From the NCBI GenBank assembly GCA_945890485.1, contig CAMDCN010000018.1, positions 1-64,000 on the forward strand: a DNA stretch of 64,000 bases, read 5' to 3'. The position numbers and the translations under genes are program-made. Every line of letters begins with the position of its first letter. The stretch's first letter is position 1. The notes below the pieces were generated by a model. It was not told the DNA's origin, made no database searches, and worked only from the letters and a program-made list of their open reading frames with translations. Origin of the DNA: Candidatus Sulfopaludibacter sp. SbA3 (GTDB lineage: Bacteria; Acidobacteriota; Terriglobia; Bryobacterales; Bryobacteraceae). Below, in pieces: positions 37,110-44,622 of the stretch.

Positions 37110-39218
37110 ATGCTTTATAAAGTAGATATTGACCTGTTTGGTGTGCCGGTCTCGATTGAGACCGGGCACATGGCCAAGCAGGCAAACGGATCCGTGATTG
37201 TTCGCTCGGGTGATTCGGTGGTGTTGGTCACCGCCTGTACGGCTCCTAAGCCGAAGCCGAACGCTGACTTTTTCCCCCTCACGGTAGATTACCGTGAATA
37301 CACGTATTCCACGGGGCGTTTCCCTGGTGGATTCATCAAGCGCGAAGGGCGCCCGTCGGAAAAAGAGATTCTGACGAGCCGCATGATTGATCGTCCGATC
37401 CGTCCGCTGTTCCCGGAAGGGTACTCGCACGAGACGCAGGTAATCGGCATGTTGTTGTCGGCTGATCCGGAACGCGACCCTGGCACTTTGGCGATTGCCG
37501 GTGCGGGCGCGGCCCTGGCGATCAGCGATATTCCGTTTCATCACGTCCTGAGCGCGGTTCGCGTGGGCAAGGTGGATGGCAAGCTGGTAGCGAATCCTTC
37601 GTATGCGCAGGCCGCCGCCTCCTCGATGAGCATCATCGTGGCCGGTACCGACAATGGGATCGTGATGGTGGAAGCGGGCGCGGAGCATGTTTCCGAAGCC
37701 GAGATCCTGGAAGCCATCGAATTTGGGCACGAGTGCTGCAAAAAGCTGAACGCGGGCATCCGCGAGCTGATGACGCTGGCCGGGAAGGCCAAGCGCGAAT
37801 ACACGCCGAAGGCGATCAATGAAGAGATGTTCGCTGAGATCGACGTGTTTATTCGCGCCGAACTCAGCGATGCACTGAACACCAAGAAGTACGGCAAGCT
37901 CGACAGCTACTCGCGGATCGACGCCGCGAAGGCGAAAGTGATCGAGAAGTACCCGGTGGAGCAGCAGGCGGAAGCCAAAGAGCTGTTCAGCATGCTGAAA
38001 GAGCGGATCTTCCGCGACGAGATGCTGAAAGATCGCCGCCGTCCGGACGGCCGCGCTTTCGACGAAGTCCGCCACATCGAGTGCGAAGTGGGTATCCTGC
38101 CCCGGACCCACGGTTCGGCGTTGTTCACCCGCGGCGAGACGCAGGCTTTGGTAACGACCACCCTCGGCACCAAAGACGACGAGCAGCGGATTGAGTTGCT
38201 CGATCCGACGGTGCTTTCGAAGCGCTTCATGTTGCACTACAACTTTCCGCCGTTCTCGGTGGGCGAAGTGGGCTTCATGCGGGGCGCGGGACGCCGCGAG
38301 ATCGGCCACGGCGCCTTGGCCGAACGGTCGATGGCGGCAGTCGTTCCTTCCGAAAAGAAGTTCCCGTACACGATCCGTGTAGTGAGCGACATTCTCGAAT
38401 CGAATGGTTCGAGCTCGATGGCTTCGGTTTGCGGCGCGTCGCTGTCCATGATGGACGCGGGTGTGCCGGTGTCGAAGGCAGTGGCCGGTATCGCGATGGG
38501 TTTGGTGAAGGAAGGCGACCAGTACGCCATTCTGACTGACATCGCGGGCGCCGAAGACCACTACGGCGACATGGACTTCAAAGTGTCTGGTTCCGCGGAC
38601 GGCATCACCGGCCTGCAGATGGACATTAAGGTTCCGAACGTCACCACCGAACTGATGAAAGAGGCGATGGAACAGGCGCGGAAAGCGCGTTTGCACATCC
38701 TTGGCATCATGGTGCAGTGCATTGATAAGCCGCGTGGCGAACTGTCGCTGCATGCACCGCGCATCCACACCATGACGATCCCGACCGACAAGATTCGGGA
38801 GCTGATTGGCCCGGGTGGCAAGATGATCCGGAGCATCACCGAAGAGACGGGTTGCAAGATCGACATCAACGACGACGGTACGGTGAACATTTATGCCACC
38901 GACGGCGTTGCCGCGCAGAAGGCGATCCAGCGGGTTACGGACATTTGCGCCGTGGCTGAGCCGGGCAAGACGTACCTCGGTAAAGTGGTGCGGATTGTGG
39001 ACTTCGGCGCGTTTGTCGAAATCTTCCCTGGCACGGACGGCTTGCTGCACATCAGCGAGATCGCCGAAAGCCGCGTGAAGGAAGTGCGGGACGAGTTGAA
39101 CGAAGGCGACCAGATCATGGTTAAGGTTCTGGCGCTCGAAGGCAACAAGATCAAGCTAAGCCGGAAAGCGGTGCTGAAAGAGCAGCGCGAAAAATTGAAG
39201 GCGGAAGCGGGTCAGTAG
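37110..39218 (+). CDS. pnp: Polyribonucleotide nucleotidyltransferase
   Basis: 702 residues with the full PNPase order: RNase PH-like domain 1 (about 10-145), helical domain, RNase PH-like domain 2 (about 310-540) with GHGALAERSM and the acidic DIAGAEDHYGDMDFK, KH domain (about 555-610, IRELIGPGGKMIRSI with the GPGG loop) and S1 domain (about 620-690, VVRIVDFGAFVEIFPGTDGL). It degrades RNA phosphorolytically in the cytoplasm. Confidence 0.97.
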   Translation: MLYKVDIDLFGVPVSIETGHMAKQANGSVIVRSGDSVVLVTACTAPKPKPNADFFPLTVDYREYTYSTGRFPGGFIKREGRPSEKEILTSRMIDRPIRPLFPEGYSHETQVIGMLLSADPERDPGTLAIAGAGAALAISDIPFHHVLSAVRVGKVDGKLVANPSYAQAAASSMSIIVAGTDNGIVMVEAGAEHVSEAEILEAIEFGHECCKKLNAGIRELMTLAGKAKREYTPKAINEEMFAEIDVFIRAELSDALNTKKYGKLDSYSRIDAAKAKVIEKYPVEQQAEAKELFSMLKERIFRDEMLKDRRRPDGRAFDEVRHIECEVGILPRTHGSALFTRGETQALVTTTLGTKDDEQRIELLDPTVLSKRFMLHYNFPPFSVGEVGFMRGAGRREIGHGALAERSMAAVVPSEKKFPYTIRVVSDILESNGSSSMASVCGASLSMMDAGVPVSKAVAGIAMGLVKEGDQYAILTDIAGAEDHYGDMDFKVSGSADGITGLQMDIKVPNVTTELMKEAMEQARKARLHILGIMVQCIDKPRGELSLHAPRIHTMTIPTDKIRELIGPGGKMIRSITEETGCKIDINDDGTVNIYATDGVAAQKAIQRVTDICAVAEPGKTYLGKVVRIVDFGAFVEIFPGTDGLLHISEIAESRVKEVRDELNEGDQIMVKVLALEGNKIKLSRKAVLKEQREKLKAEAGQ

Positions 39219-39235: not shown

Positions 39236-39277
39236 AAAAAACGGCCGTCCGGGGGATACCCTGGGCGGCCGTTTTCG
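39236..39277 (+). terminator. Terminator after pnp
   Basis: AAAACGGCCGTCC pairs with GGGCGGCCGTTTT across a short loop containing GGGATACCCT, which can itself fold. A strong stem with a T-run, 18 bases after the pnp stop. Confidence 0.88.
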
Positions 39278-39316: not shown

Positions 39317-39493
39317 ATGAGTGAAATCTTTATTCCCTTAGCGATGATCGCGGGCTACATCGTGCTGATGCGCTTTGTGTTGCCCAAGATGGGCGTCCCC
39401 ACTTGAATGAGCGGATGCGACGTCGAGTCTCGACGTCCCGACCCGTCACTTCGTGAACGTAAGCAGCCAACGCGAGTCACTCCCGACAAATAG
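39317..39493 (+). CDS. Candidate small membrane selenoprotein (TGA at 39404-39406 read as Sec)
   Basis: From ATG 39317 a 29-residue frame reads MSEIFIPLAMIAGYIVLMRF then VLPKMGVPT and meets TGA. It is a single membrane helix with a basic end. After the TGA the frame stays open for 28 codons to TAG 39491-39493, beginning MSGCDVESRRPDPSLRERK, so Sec would form a U-x3-C pair. A hairpin starts 12 bases after the TGA. The pnp terminator lies upstream, so it needs its own promoter; the ribosome-binding site is weak. If TGA is a stop, the product is 29 residues (39317-39406). The tail overlaps the convergent gene by 48 bases. Sec readthrough is inference. Confidence 0.5.
39419..39437 (+). promoter_or_regulatory. 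SECIS-like hairpin downstream of in-frame TGA
   Basis: GACGTCG (39419-39425) pairs with CGACGTC (39431-39437), leaving loop AGTCT; two further pairs are possible inside. The loop carries GU and begins 19 bases after the TGA. Bacterial SECIS elements are short hairpins at this distance with a G or GU in the apical loop, and the E. coli fdhF loop is AGGUCU. No T-run follows on either strand, so it is a poor terminator. Confidence 0.45.
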
Positions 39494-40507
39494 GCGGGCG
39501 CGTTGACTGGAGCGCTTATCGGTCTCTCCGGAGCCGAGGCCGAGGGCCATTGGGTACCAACCCACGTTCGAGAGAATTTGCTGTGGCGGCGACCACCCCT
39601 GGGGATCGGCGAGGTCGCTTGCGTAGCTGATATAAATCCCCTCCGGTGGCCAGCGGGGTTCGCAGCAAGAGCGGCTCATGAGCATTACGTACTTGTTGAG
39701 GTACGTGTTGTAGTGAATTGACGGGCCCCAGAAAGCGTCAGTGTTCGGGCTGATCCAACTGACGGCCGCGGGAATGGCGGCTTCGGACAAGCCCCCGAGG
39801 CCGGGCTCGTTCCACTCTCCGCCGTAGCGCTTCCAAACACTACCCGTGGGGAAGTAGCGGTCGTCGTAGGCGAGACGGGCGGCGGCGATGCCTTGCGCAC
39901 TCAGGGGCCCGGCATAGTTGGAATAGTAAAAGTAGAAGTACTTGCCTTCTTCGTCGAGAAGGACGCTGAAATCGCCGTTTCCTCCGGCAAAGTAGCCATT
40001 CTCCGCTGAGCAGTCCGCAGTCTCACCGGCAGTGAGGATGATGCCGAGGTCGAAGAAGCTGATGCCATTGTCGTAAGAGACGAGCATGCCGATCTCCGGA
40101 GCGCTGAGGTATTTGCCTTCACAGCCGACGCCAACCTCGTGGTGATACCAGGCGAAAAGTGTGCCGTCGGGCTCGAGGTGCGTCGCCTCGATCCACATCG
40201 GGGCGTGGAAGTAAGTATCGAGTTTGACGGCGCGGACGCGGCGCAGGTTGGTGACGTCGGTACCTTCGCTGCGGATGGGCATGCCGTCCGAGTTAAAGAC
40301 GATCATCTCGCCATTGCGCCAGTGGACCGGGCTATTGGAGTCGGAGATGCCCGGGAACCATTGGAGTTCCTCTTCGGTGACAGTGACGTGTTGGGCGAAA
40401 GTGGGAAGGGCGAGTACGGAAAGGCAGACAAGGGCTCGTATACTATTCGGAATGCAATTGAGTGCTTTGGATTGGCTCGTGGTCGCGCTGTATTTCGCGT
40501 TGAACAT
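39446..40507 (-). CDS. Secreted protein resembling five-bladed propeller glycosidases
   Basis: 353 residues. A signal peptide at about 23-39 (IRALVCLSVLALPTFAQ) is preceded by an unusually long n-region; the only ordinary start is ATG 40507. Strand-rich sequence with WIEATHLEPDGTLFAWYHHE, PEIGMLVSYDNGISFFDLG and WGPSIHYNTYLNKYVMLMS resembles GH43/GH117-type propellers, where such motifs describe a substrate-facing sheet. A catalytic triad cannot be assigned with certainty. Its 5' end overlaps the divergent symporter gene by 56 bases, so the true start may be an unconventional codon near 40450. Confidence 0.65.
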   Translation of the reverse strand: MFNAKYSATTSQSKALNCIPNSIRALVCLSVLALPTFAQHVTVTEEELQWFPGISDSNSPVHWRNGEMIVFNSDGMPIRSEGTDVTNLRRVRAVKLDTYFHAPMWIEATHLEPDGTLFAWYHHEVGVGCEGKYLSAPEIGMLVSYDNGISFFDLGIILTAGETADCSAENGYFAGGNGDFSVLLDEEGKYFYFYYSNYAGPLSAQGIAAARLAYDDRYFPTGSVWKRYGGEWNEPGLGGLSEAAIPAAVSWISPNTDAFWGPSIHYNTYLNKYVMLMSRSCCEPRWPPEGIYISYASDLADPQGWSPPQQILSNVGWYPMALGLGSGETDKRSSQRARLFVGSDSRWLLTFTK

Positions 40508-43743: not shown

Positions 43744-44622
43744 GTGTATTCTGTGGTTGCCATGAAGAAACTTACGAAGATTCTCCTTGCAGTAGACTTC
43801 GCGCCACAGTCAGTTCGGATGGCGCATCAGGCTCGCGCCTTGGCCGAGGCAAGCGGCGCCGAGGTTCTGGCCGTGCATGCGGTGCGACCCTTCGAGATGA
43901 TGACCGAAGGCATGGACGTGCCGGGAGCCGTGGTGTTGGAGTGGTACGAAGCCCAGAAGCCTCTCCTGGAGCGGCAGTTGACCGCGTTCTGCCAGGAGCA
44001 TCTGGGCAGTTGCCGGTTCCGGACGTTTCTCGTGGAAGGCGAACCGGCGTCGGAGATTGTGAAGTTGGCCGGGACGGAGTCCGTTGATCTAGTGCTGCTG
44101 GCGACACACGGTTTTGGGGCTTTCCGGCGGTTTATTTTGGGTTCGATTACGGCCAAGGTGCTCCATGACTCGCCGACACCGGTGTTGACCGGCGCTCACT
44201 TGCAGGAGCCCCGCCTGGGGAGTGGCACGTTTCGTAAGATCGTCGTTGGGGTCGACTTGGGACCACGGACAGCGGAAGTGTTGGCTGCCGCAAAAGAGGT
44301 GGGCGCGGAGGAGACGATTGTCGTCCACGCAATGCCGACCGTGGGCGATGGCGTGCAGCGGGCGTTTGATCCTTCCTGGGAGTTTGCGCTGAAGGCGGCG
44401 GTGGAGACGACGTTGAACGAGGCGATCGAGCAGGCCGGTATCACGGCGACGACGATCACCGAGGCTGAGTCGCCGGCGAGGTTGATTCACCGTGTGGCAG
44501 AGGAGCAAGGCGCCGACCTGGTGGTGATCGGCCGCCACTCCGACGACACGATTCTCGGCCGGTTGACGGCGCAGGCGTACGCGATTGTGCGCGAGTCGCC
44601 TTGCCCCGTGCTGAGCGTCTAA
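43744..44622 (+). CDS. Two-domain universal stress protein (UspA family)
   Basis: 292 residues. Domain 1 (KILLAVDFAPQSVRMAHQAR to PTPVL) and domain 2 (KIVVGVDLGPRTAEVL to CPVLSV) are both Usp folds. The ATP-loop region in domain 1 reads ATHGFGAFRRFILGSITAKV, close to the G-2x-G-9x-G(S/T) signature. In domain 2 the equivalent is GRHSDDTILGRLTAQA and appears altered. GTG 43744 has GGAG 4 bases upstream; ATG 43762 is an alternative that starts nearer the fold. Cytoplasmic stress function by family. Confidence 0.88.
   Translation: MYSVVAMKKLTKILLAVDFAPQSVRMAHQARALAEASGAEVLAVHAVRPFEMMTEGMDVPGAVVLEWYEAQKPLLERQLTAFCQEHLGSCRFRTFLVEGEPASEIVKLAGTESVDLVLLATHGFGAFRRFILGSITAKVLHDSPTPVLTGAHLQEPRLGSGTFRKIVVGVDLGPRTAEVLAAAKEVGAEETIVVHAMPTVGDGVQRAFDPSWEFALKAAVETTLNEAIEQAGITATTITEAESPARLIHRVAEEQGADLVVIGRHSDDTILGRLTAQAYAIVRESPCPVLSV

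Follow-up and report, generated by a model that had tools for sequence, protein, structure and literature searches.

A probable membrane-anchored selenoprotein from an acidobacterium and its apparently undescribed, almost Sec-only family

A short gene of Candidatus Sulfopaludibacter sp. SbA3 (Acidobacteriota), interrupted by an in-frame TGA, very probably encodes a genuine selenoprotein with a membrane-anchored product, and it represents an apparently previously undescribed family of selenoproteins. Comparison with homologues supports what looks like a selenoprotein signature, made up of a UGA of the selenocysteine (Sec) type, a hairpin, the Sec machinery and a characteristic phylogenetic pattern. 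The gene lies in a 64,000-nucleotide stretch of contig CAMDCN010000018.1, the whole of which is called the window here. A first-pass annotation had proposed a tiny membrane selenoprotein at this place; the spread of the family over many phyla and its sulfur- and redox-related neighbourhood were not foreseen in it.

The interrupted gene and its homologues

The gene is on the plus strand, as are all its elements described here. Its first 29 codons (39317..39403; open reading frame list and family alignment) specify one hydrophobic helix followed by LPKMGVPT and run up to the TGA (39404..39406), which we read as selenocysteine from the codon counts given below. The frame then stays open for a 28-codon tail beginning MSGCDVESRRPDP, which ends in a TAG stop (tail with stop 39407..39493; TAG 39491-39493; same sources), so that the read-through product has 58 residues. 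A spacer of 12 nt (39407-39418), whose last codon is the TGC (39416-39418) of a cysteine four residues past the TGA, separates the TGA from a hairpin of bacterial SECIS (bSECIS) type, GACGTCGA-GTC-TCGACGTC (39419..39437), with arms at 39419-39426 and 39430-39437. The stem is 8 bp long with GUC at the tip, or 7 bp when the innermost A-U is opened, and the loop starts 19-20 nt past the TGA, according to the closing point. Checked against the coordinates, the earlier description of the locus held throughout: the 29-codon frame ending in GVPT, the TGA and the 12-base spacer, a perfect hairpin of 7-9 bp with GU in its apical loop 19 bases from the TGA, the 28 open codons and the cysteine four residues on are all present. 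A terminator had been regarded as the weaker reading of the hairpin, and we reject it in view of the missing T-run and the position of the hairpin within conserved coding sequence.

The neighbours of the gene are a 702-codon frame upstream (37110..39218, plus strand), pnp (PNPase)-like by eye, and a convergent 353-codon frame (39446..40507, minus strand), whose end overlaps the tail codons; homologues of both are likewise placed in 8/8 same-genus loci. A GC-rich inverted repeat followed by TTTT (39242-39275), a terminator by eye, is located between the pnp-like gene and the selenoprotein frame. It is overlapped by an Rfam sX6 match (22.6 of 40 bits, below cut-off) that covers the pnp end and the intergenic stretch and that we take as chance. 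A Usp-like frame, also recognized by eye, is found about 4 kb downstream (43744-44622), and this may be a coincidence.

Homologues were collected in three ways. When the read-through product was compared by tblastn with 200 genomes of the window's order, matches were found in 98 at E <=0.1, and those listed at E <=0.001 all contain a TGA, except two with no stop (genomes G003 and G016); matches with E >0.0168 were left out, as were those with E 0.0066-0.0168 that had TAG, no stop or larger frames (G162, G146:C128, G024:C22, G020). A profile search of 396 genomes of the phylum gave matches in 100 genomes at E 0.01, some of them to the helix or the tail only, which were dropped; about 16 of the matches left out lacked the TGA and matched the helix alone or the tail alone. 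The resulting phylum set (Acidobacteriota) comprises 170 loci in 165 genomes. A scan of GTDB genomes with a DNA pattern allowing TGA, TGC or TGT at the site (the named-genome scan) added at least 116 stretches, of which 114 among those listed encode the family, while L274 and L283 have no helix and were dropped as chance matches. The 284 listed loci are the sum of the 170 and the 114, and 13 of the 114, identical over 60 nt to loci of the phylum set, are counted in both. Ten dropped matches were inspected, and eight of these are chance or pieces of other proteins. In locus L348 (G548) the reading GVPTC...C is not preceded by a helix, and we regard it as chance; L347 (G491:C7:19117-19203), with a weakly related helix and, in a selB-bearing genome, TGG in place of the Sec codon, may be a diverged, decayed or chance copy, a weak relative at best.

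The family consensus is MPEWL..(helix)..GYxxLMRWVLPxxGVPT-U-M-S-x-x-C-D-V-x-S-R-R-P, as seen in the oriented translations, and in the alignments sequence conservation spans the TGA in frame. In 137 of the 170 phylum loci the Sec codon is codon 30, with start codons chosen by a rule that prefers 29 codons ahead of the TGA. Across the listed loci the codon after LPxxGxxT is TGA in 281 of 284, Cys in 3, and neither TAA nor TAG in any (phylum set: TGA 168, TGC 1, TGT 1; named-genome scan: TGA 113, Cys 1, in L282), while the true ends of the frames in the 170 phylum loci are mixed, with 75 TGA, 50 TAG and 43 TAA, two frames leaving the contig. Homologues with other stops, or with nothing conserved after the TGA, had been named beforehand as evidence against a selenoprotein; what is observed is a conserved downstream sequence and a site free of TAA and TAG. 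The homologues with Cys at the TGA that had been called for do exist, and the three listed above show how rare they are.

The proposed Cys partner near Sec stands, and its proposed spacing does not: the first Cys past the Sec codon is at +5 (U-x4-C) in 138 of the 170 phylum loci, at +4 (U-x3-C, as in the window) in only 7 and at +6 in 5. As 20 of the 170 have no Cys within 7 residues, it is Sec, and not the Cys pair, that is the constant of the family. A subgroup with tails such as UAVPxP, UAAPxP and UGVPNP (L151, L161-L163, L168, L169, L173-L179) likewise keeps Sec without a nearby Cys, and the U-x4-C pair is thus not essential.

The taxonomic spread is wide. The 80 named among the at least 116 stretches include members of Desulfobacterales, Geobacter and relatives, Syntrophobacteraceae, KSB1, Planctomycetota, Spirochaetes, Eisenbacteria, Armatimonadota, Verrucomicrobiota, a Cyanobacteria-labelled MAG and Kuenenia. 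The profile was also run on 198 genomes from the phylum assigned to Geobacter sp. OR-1; it found the family in 74, and each match listed has a TGA inside. The TGA form is present in 79 of the 200 genomes in the window's order and in 85 of the 396 in its phylum. Some genomes (G136, G138, G171, G197, G228) possess two copies with differing tails.

Machinery, hairpin and coding signal

A genome without Sec machinery would have spoken against the proposal. The source genome (7.1 Mb, 97% complete) has all four components over their cut-offs: selB (378.8 bits, cut-off 242.25), selA (455.9, cut-off 267.9), selD (354.9, cut-off 125) and tRNA-Sec (70.6 bits, gathering score 47). In 14 control genomes the models exceeded their cut-offs 2 times for selB, 5 for tRNA-Sec, 1 for selA and 2 for selD, the tRNA-Sec model, with 5/14, thus being the least specific of the four. 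A single in-frame TGA lies within the family match of the source genome's selD (G000:C9:111412-112320), whose product is itself probably Sec-containing.

The full set of selA, selB, tRNA-Sec and selD is established for the source genome, and relatives were checked for selB only. Of the 396 genomes in the phylum sample, 254 have selB over cut-off, among them 81 of the 85 with the TGA form (Fisher p=1e-13), the exceptions being G317, G326, G440 and G570; a further 173 genomes have selB and no detected family member. In the order sample, where about 165 of the 200 genomes have selB over cut-off, a full-scoring selB is found in 73 of the 79 TGA-form genomes (p=0.004). Among the other six TGA-form genomes of this sample, G184 and G191 (79% and 84% complete) give no match to selB at E 1e-40, and the matches in G069, G100, G126 and G199 stay below full score. 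Both Cys-form phylum genomes (G003, G016; 99% complete) also lack any selB match at E 1e-40; in the genome of the third Cys form, L282, a piece of selB scores over cut-off at a contig edge. Of 15 genomes picked from the named-genome scan, 14 have selB over cut-off, and in the sole exception, that of L251, the match is partial. Cultured hosts with selB include Geobacter sp. OR-1, Pelotalea chapellei DSM 13688, Geomobilimonas luticola JCM 17780 and Thermodesulfatator autotrophicus S606, and these make the selenoprotein family testable now.

Taken as a single sequence, the hairpin of the window folds unremarkably (z -1.21; 24 of 200 shuffles equally stable), and its significance therefore rests on comparison. 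We applied our own implementation of the bSECIS criteria found in the available part of the 2026 inventory (PMC13188914), asking for a hairpin 16-37 nt past the UGA with G in the first two loop positions. Of the 167 TGA members tested, 135 pass and 32 fail. The pass rate is 18% in both controls, 309 of 1700 for TGAs drawn at random from these loci and 154 of 835 for tails with shuffled codons. Of two Cys forms tested, L205 fails and L190 still passes. Covariation was analysed in 205 non-redundant sequences, drawn from the 247 in one register among 281. The eight named pairs are formed in 61.8% of cells, versus 30.2-44.6% when the register is slid by 1-3 nt, individual pairs being formed in 82 to 143 of the 205 homologues, the outermost least often. 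Synonymous third bases follow their RNA pairing partners. One example is position 22 (the T of TGA being 0): when it is C, the paired Arg codon is CGG in 36 sequences, CGC in 8, CGT in 4 and CGA in 0, and when it is T, CGA in 36, CGG in 31, CGC in 5 and CGT in 1 (Fisher p=2e-9 for T/C against third base A/G, a value inflated by relatedness). Another example is position 25, where A is paired with the Ser codon TCT in 26 sequences and with nothing else, and G with TCC in 22, TCG in 10, TCT in 4 and TCA in 1 (p=1e-10 for A/G against third base T/C, likewise inflated by relatedness).

Selection on the coding sequence was estimated from 8 same-genus loci. The ratio pN/pS is 0.17 before the TGA, 0.19 over tail codons 1-11 and 0.89 over codons 12-28, where no purifying selection is seen within the genus; for the whole tail it is 0.58 in frame versus 0.91 and 1.50 in the other two frames. 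This test lends weak support, because the convergent gene overlaps codons 12-28 and the hairpin puts a constraint of its own on codons 1-11.

Two readings dispense with selenocysteine. Were the TGA a real stop, the product would be a 29-residue membrane peptide, and the hairpin and the downstream similarity would belong to a regulatory RNA or to chance, and both the unremarkable single-sequence fold and the relaxed far tail would fit. We consider this very improbable: a mere stop leaves unexplained why the site is TGA in 281 listed loci and TAA or TAG in none while true ends are mixed, why an in-frame C-x-x-x-x-R-R motif follows it, why Cys codons occur in genomes lacking selB and why the TGA form is associated with selB. 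A pair of small frames joined by termination and re-initiation at TGA-ATG gains some appeal from the ATG directly after the TGA in 191 of the 281 listed TGA loci, that of the window included, but 86 of the 281 have no ATG, GTG or TTG there and the two halves form one frame in all three Cys forms, which makes this reading hardly credible. On the selenoprotein reading, the comparison suggests that SelB and the bSECIS hairpin downstream of the UGA direct its decoding as Sec.

Membrane topology, gene neighbourhood and possible function

The earlier suggestion of a single-helix membrane anchor is borne out, at the level of prediction, across the family. In 96% of 282 members the best 19-residue hydropathy is above 1.6, and charges are unevenly distributed, the first six residues carrying on average 0.21 K/R and 0.90 D/E per member, and the 13 residues before Sec 1.66 K/R. 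The positive-inside rule relates such charges to the topology of membrane proteins, and by this rule the K/R bias before Sec predicts an N-out, C-in orientation. The product would thus be a single-pass inner-membrane protein of about 50-60 residues with one hydrophobic helix, a short acidic N-terminus outside and, in the cytoplasm, a K/R-flanked helix end and an unstructured, Sec-bearing tail. AlphaFold2, run on a single sequence, places a helix at residues 5-25 and leaves the tail unstructured (mean pLDDT 64, pTM 0.35). Among 11 members scanned (max E 10), no Pfam-A or NCBIfam model scored over its cut-off; the best sub-cut-off values were E 0.015 for Pfam (DUF5337 with 15.6 of 27 bits, Arabinose_trans with 14.6 of 25 bits) and E 0.073 for NCBIfam.

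Neighbours within 3.5 kb of the 284 listed loci were counted by single-sequence phmmer (E 1e-5), with representatives confirmed by Pfam. Seven families recur: DUF302 (32 loci), RND transporter (29), thioredoxin (28), ArsR (27), Usp (25), rhodanese (24) and an FmdB-type zinc ribbon (20). A cluster HMM had given Usp in 45 loci, a number inflated by out-of-frame ORFs over RND genes. At least one of the seven is present in 123 loci and none in 161, and the window's own locus has none adjacent, which makes the functional reading a weak one in the case of the window itself. Directly adjacent to the gene are thioredoxin in 16, DUF302 in 22 and rhodanese in 15 of the 284 listed loci. Among the loci listed outside the window's phylum, thioredoxin (16) and ArsR (11) are the most widely spread, DUF302 (3) and Usp (2) being largely confined to the phylum. 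For DUF302, the one neighbour family covered by a whole-genome chance control, 19 of 55 copies in 63 genomes are located within 952 bp of the selenoprotein gene, with about 0.09 expected by chance within 3.5 kb. In an unbiased tally of the ORFs adjoining the gene (n=149), thioredoxin (7) and rhodanese (5) come first, and most of the 128 families occur once or a few times.

Several gene orders recur (SecP being the selenoprotein gene). One is SecP-thioredoxin-FmdB (L126, L140, L144, L148, L150), and another ArsR-SecP-FmdB-DUF302 (L173, L178, L179). ArsR and three rhodanese-type ORFs precede SecP in L146 and L164 (L250 being on the same contig as L164), and of those of L164 one combines MBL and rhodanese and one rhodanese and a YgaP-like membrane domain. 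A TauE-like ORF precedes SecP in L155 (a 60-residue piece, 23 of 32.6 bits), and in L197 SecP is preceded by a CoA-disulfide-reductase-like rhodanese fusion and followed by DUF302. About six order loci (e.g., L019, L022) have Tll0287-like haem-domain and cytochrome-peroxidase-like ORFs downstream on the opposite strand.

The mechanism that we consider most likely, and put forward tentatively, is that of a membrane-tethered selenol attacking an oxidised sulfur or sulfane-sulfur substrate at the cytoplasmic face of the inner membrane, candidate substrates being a persulfide, a polysulfide or perhaps a peroxide. The nearby Cys, where present, would resolve the selenenyl sulfide, and thioredoxin would then reduce the selenoprotein. 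The cross-phylum, almost Sec-only family may possibly, then, provide a thioredoxin-reducible selenol at the cytoplasmic membrane face, acting as a relay for sulfane sulfur or for other reactive species of sulfur and oxygen.

Other roles for the same selenoprotein can be read from the neighbourhood. The protein might serve metal or metalloid efflux, as a small accessory subunit or a metal-handling selenol of RND systems under ArsR control, given the RND and ArsR genes in 29 and 27 listed loci and the orders ArsR-SecP...TolC-MFP-RND in L201 and SecP-TolC-MFP-RND in L093 and L111. Such a role seems unlikely, RND being adjacent on the same strand in only 2 listed loci and thioredoxin, DUF302 and rhodanese being the more frequent direct neighbours. 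We are similarly doubtful of a sensor of selenium or redox status, a tiny membrane peptide whose Sec state would signal to a partner without enzymatic turnover. The very small size, the absence of a globular domain in the AlphaFold2 model and the ECF sigma-factor-like ORFs near 16 and Usp genes near 25 of the 284 listed loci are consistent with it, but the near-invariant Sec, accompanied at U+4 to U+6 by a Cys in 150 of 170 loci, and the recurrent thioredoxin genes fit turnover chemistry better.

Comparison with known selenoproteins and sulfur defences

GrdA is a soluble glycine-reductase subunit, and no sequence relation to it is seen in the family described here, which in addition has three Cys forms among the listed loci. 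What they share is the near-exclusive use of Sec, as far as GrdA is covered in the available part of an earlier screen, where selenoproteins without Cys homologues are called scarce (PMC1914089). The present family, if real, belongs to this rare kind, Cys seldom replacing Sec while the Sec machinery is present. An almost Sec-only family of this type would offer a handle on what Sec is needed for, in this case at the surface of a membrane and in the vicinity of genes for thioredoxin, DUF302 and rhodanese.

In the available part of the 2026 inventory of prokaryotic selenoproteins, Table 1 comprises 119 families (PMC13188914), and no entry in that table is recognisable as the GVPTU membrane family. 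Like the bacterial selenoproteins catalogued there, this family has an in-frame UGA, a hairpin at the prescribed distance, the Sec machinery and often a Cys near Sec; unlike them, it consists of single-helix membrane proteins of 50-60 residues with GVPTU, with Cys homologues nearly absent. The Tso operon, whose selenoproteins, in the same part of the inventory, include TsoA and TsoB, the latter with a UxxxxU motif, resembles several loci in placing a selenoprotein near rhodanese, thioredoxin-like and ArsR-type genes (PMC13188914), while the Tso operon models matched none of the 11 family members scanned. Known defences against persulfides, in the available part of their description, involve SqrR/BigR-type ArsR sensors, rhodaneses, persulfide dioxygenases and thioredoxin (PMC9774590). 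Several loci are similar to SqrR/BigR/CstB-type operons in that ArsR, MBL-rhodanese, YgaP-like rhodanese and TauE-like or thioredoxin genes adjoin the selenoprotein; they differ in that no selenoprotein is named in that part (PMC9774590) and in that most family loci are without such a context. In L164, where Pfam recognizes both ArsR and rhodanese genes, the ArsR reaches 55 of 155 bits with the BigR model and 43 of 115 with that of TsoR, and the MBL-rhodanese 58 of 625 bits with that of Blh; with the ArsR below the BigR cut-off, we do not claim membership in a SqrR/BigR system. DUF302 has been noted inside sox clusters, in the available part of another report (PMC5037610).

Text searches of the open literature turned up no account of the family, most subscription journals, all preprints and GenBank annotation being outside the search. 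It could well be missed, being short, halved by the TGA and nearly devoid of Cys homologues, and both gene finders and searches for Cys/Sec pairs would pass over such genes. If real, it adds a widespread family to the 2026 catalogue of 119 and changes the selenoproteome counts of whole phyla.

A parallel in layout comes from eukaryotes. SELENOK and SELENOS are small single-pass membrane selenoproteins of the endoplasmic reticulum, with Sec in a flexible cytosolic tail and another SECIS system. The likeness is one of layout only, a small single-pass protein with Sec in its tail, and we do not claim homology. If the relay proposed above is true, this family would be a bacterial counterpart, in layout, of SELENOK and SELENOS, and it would possibly be among the commonest selenoproteins of its hosts.
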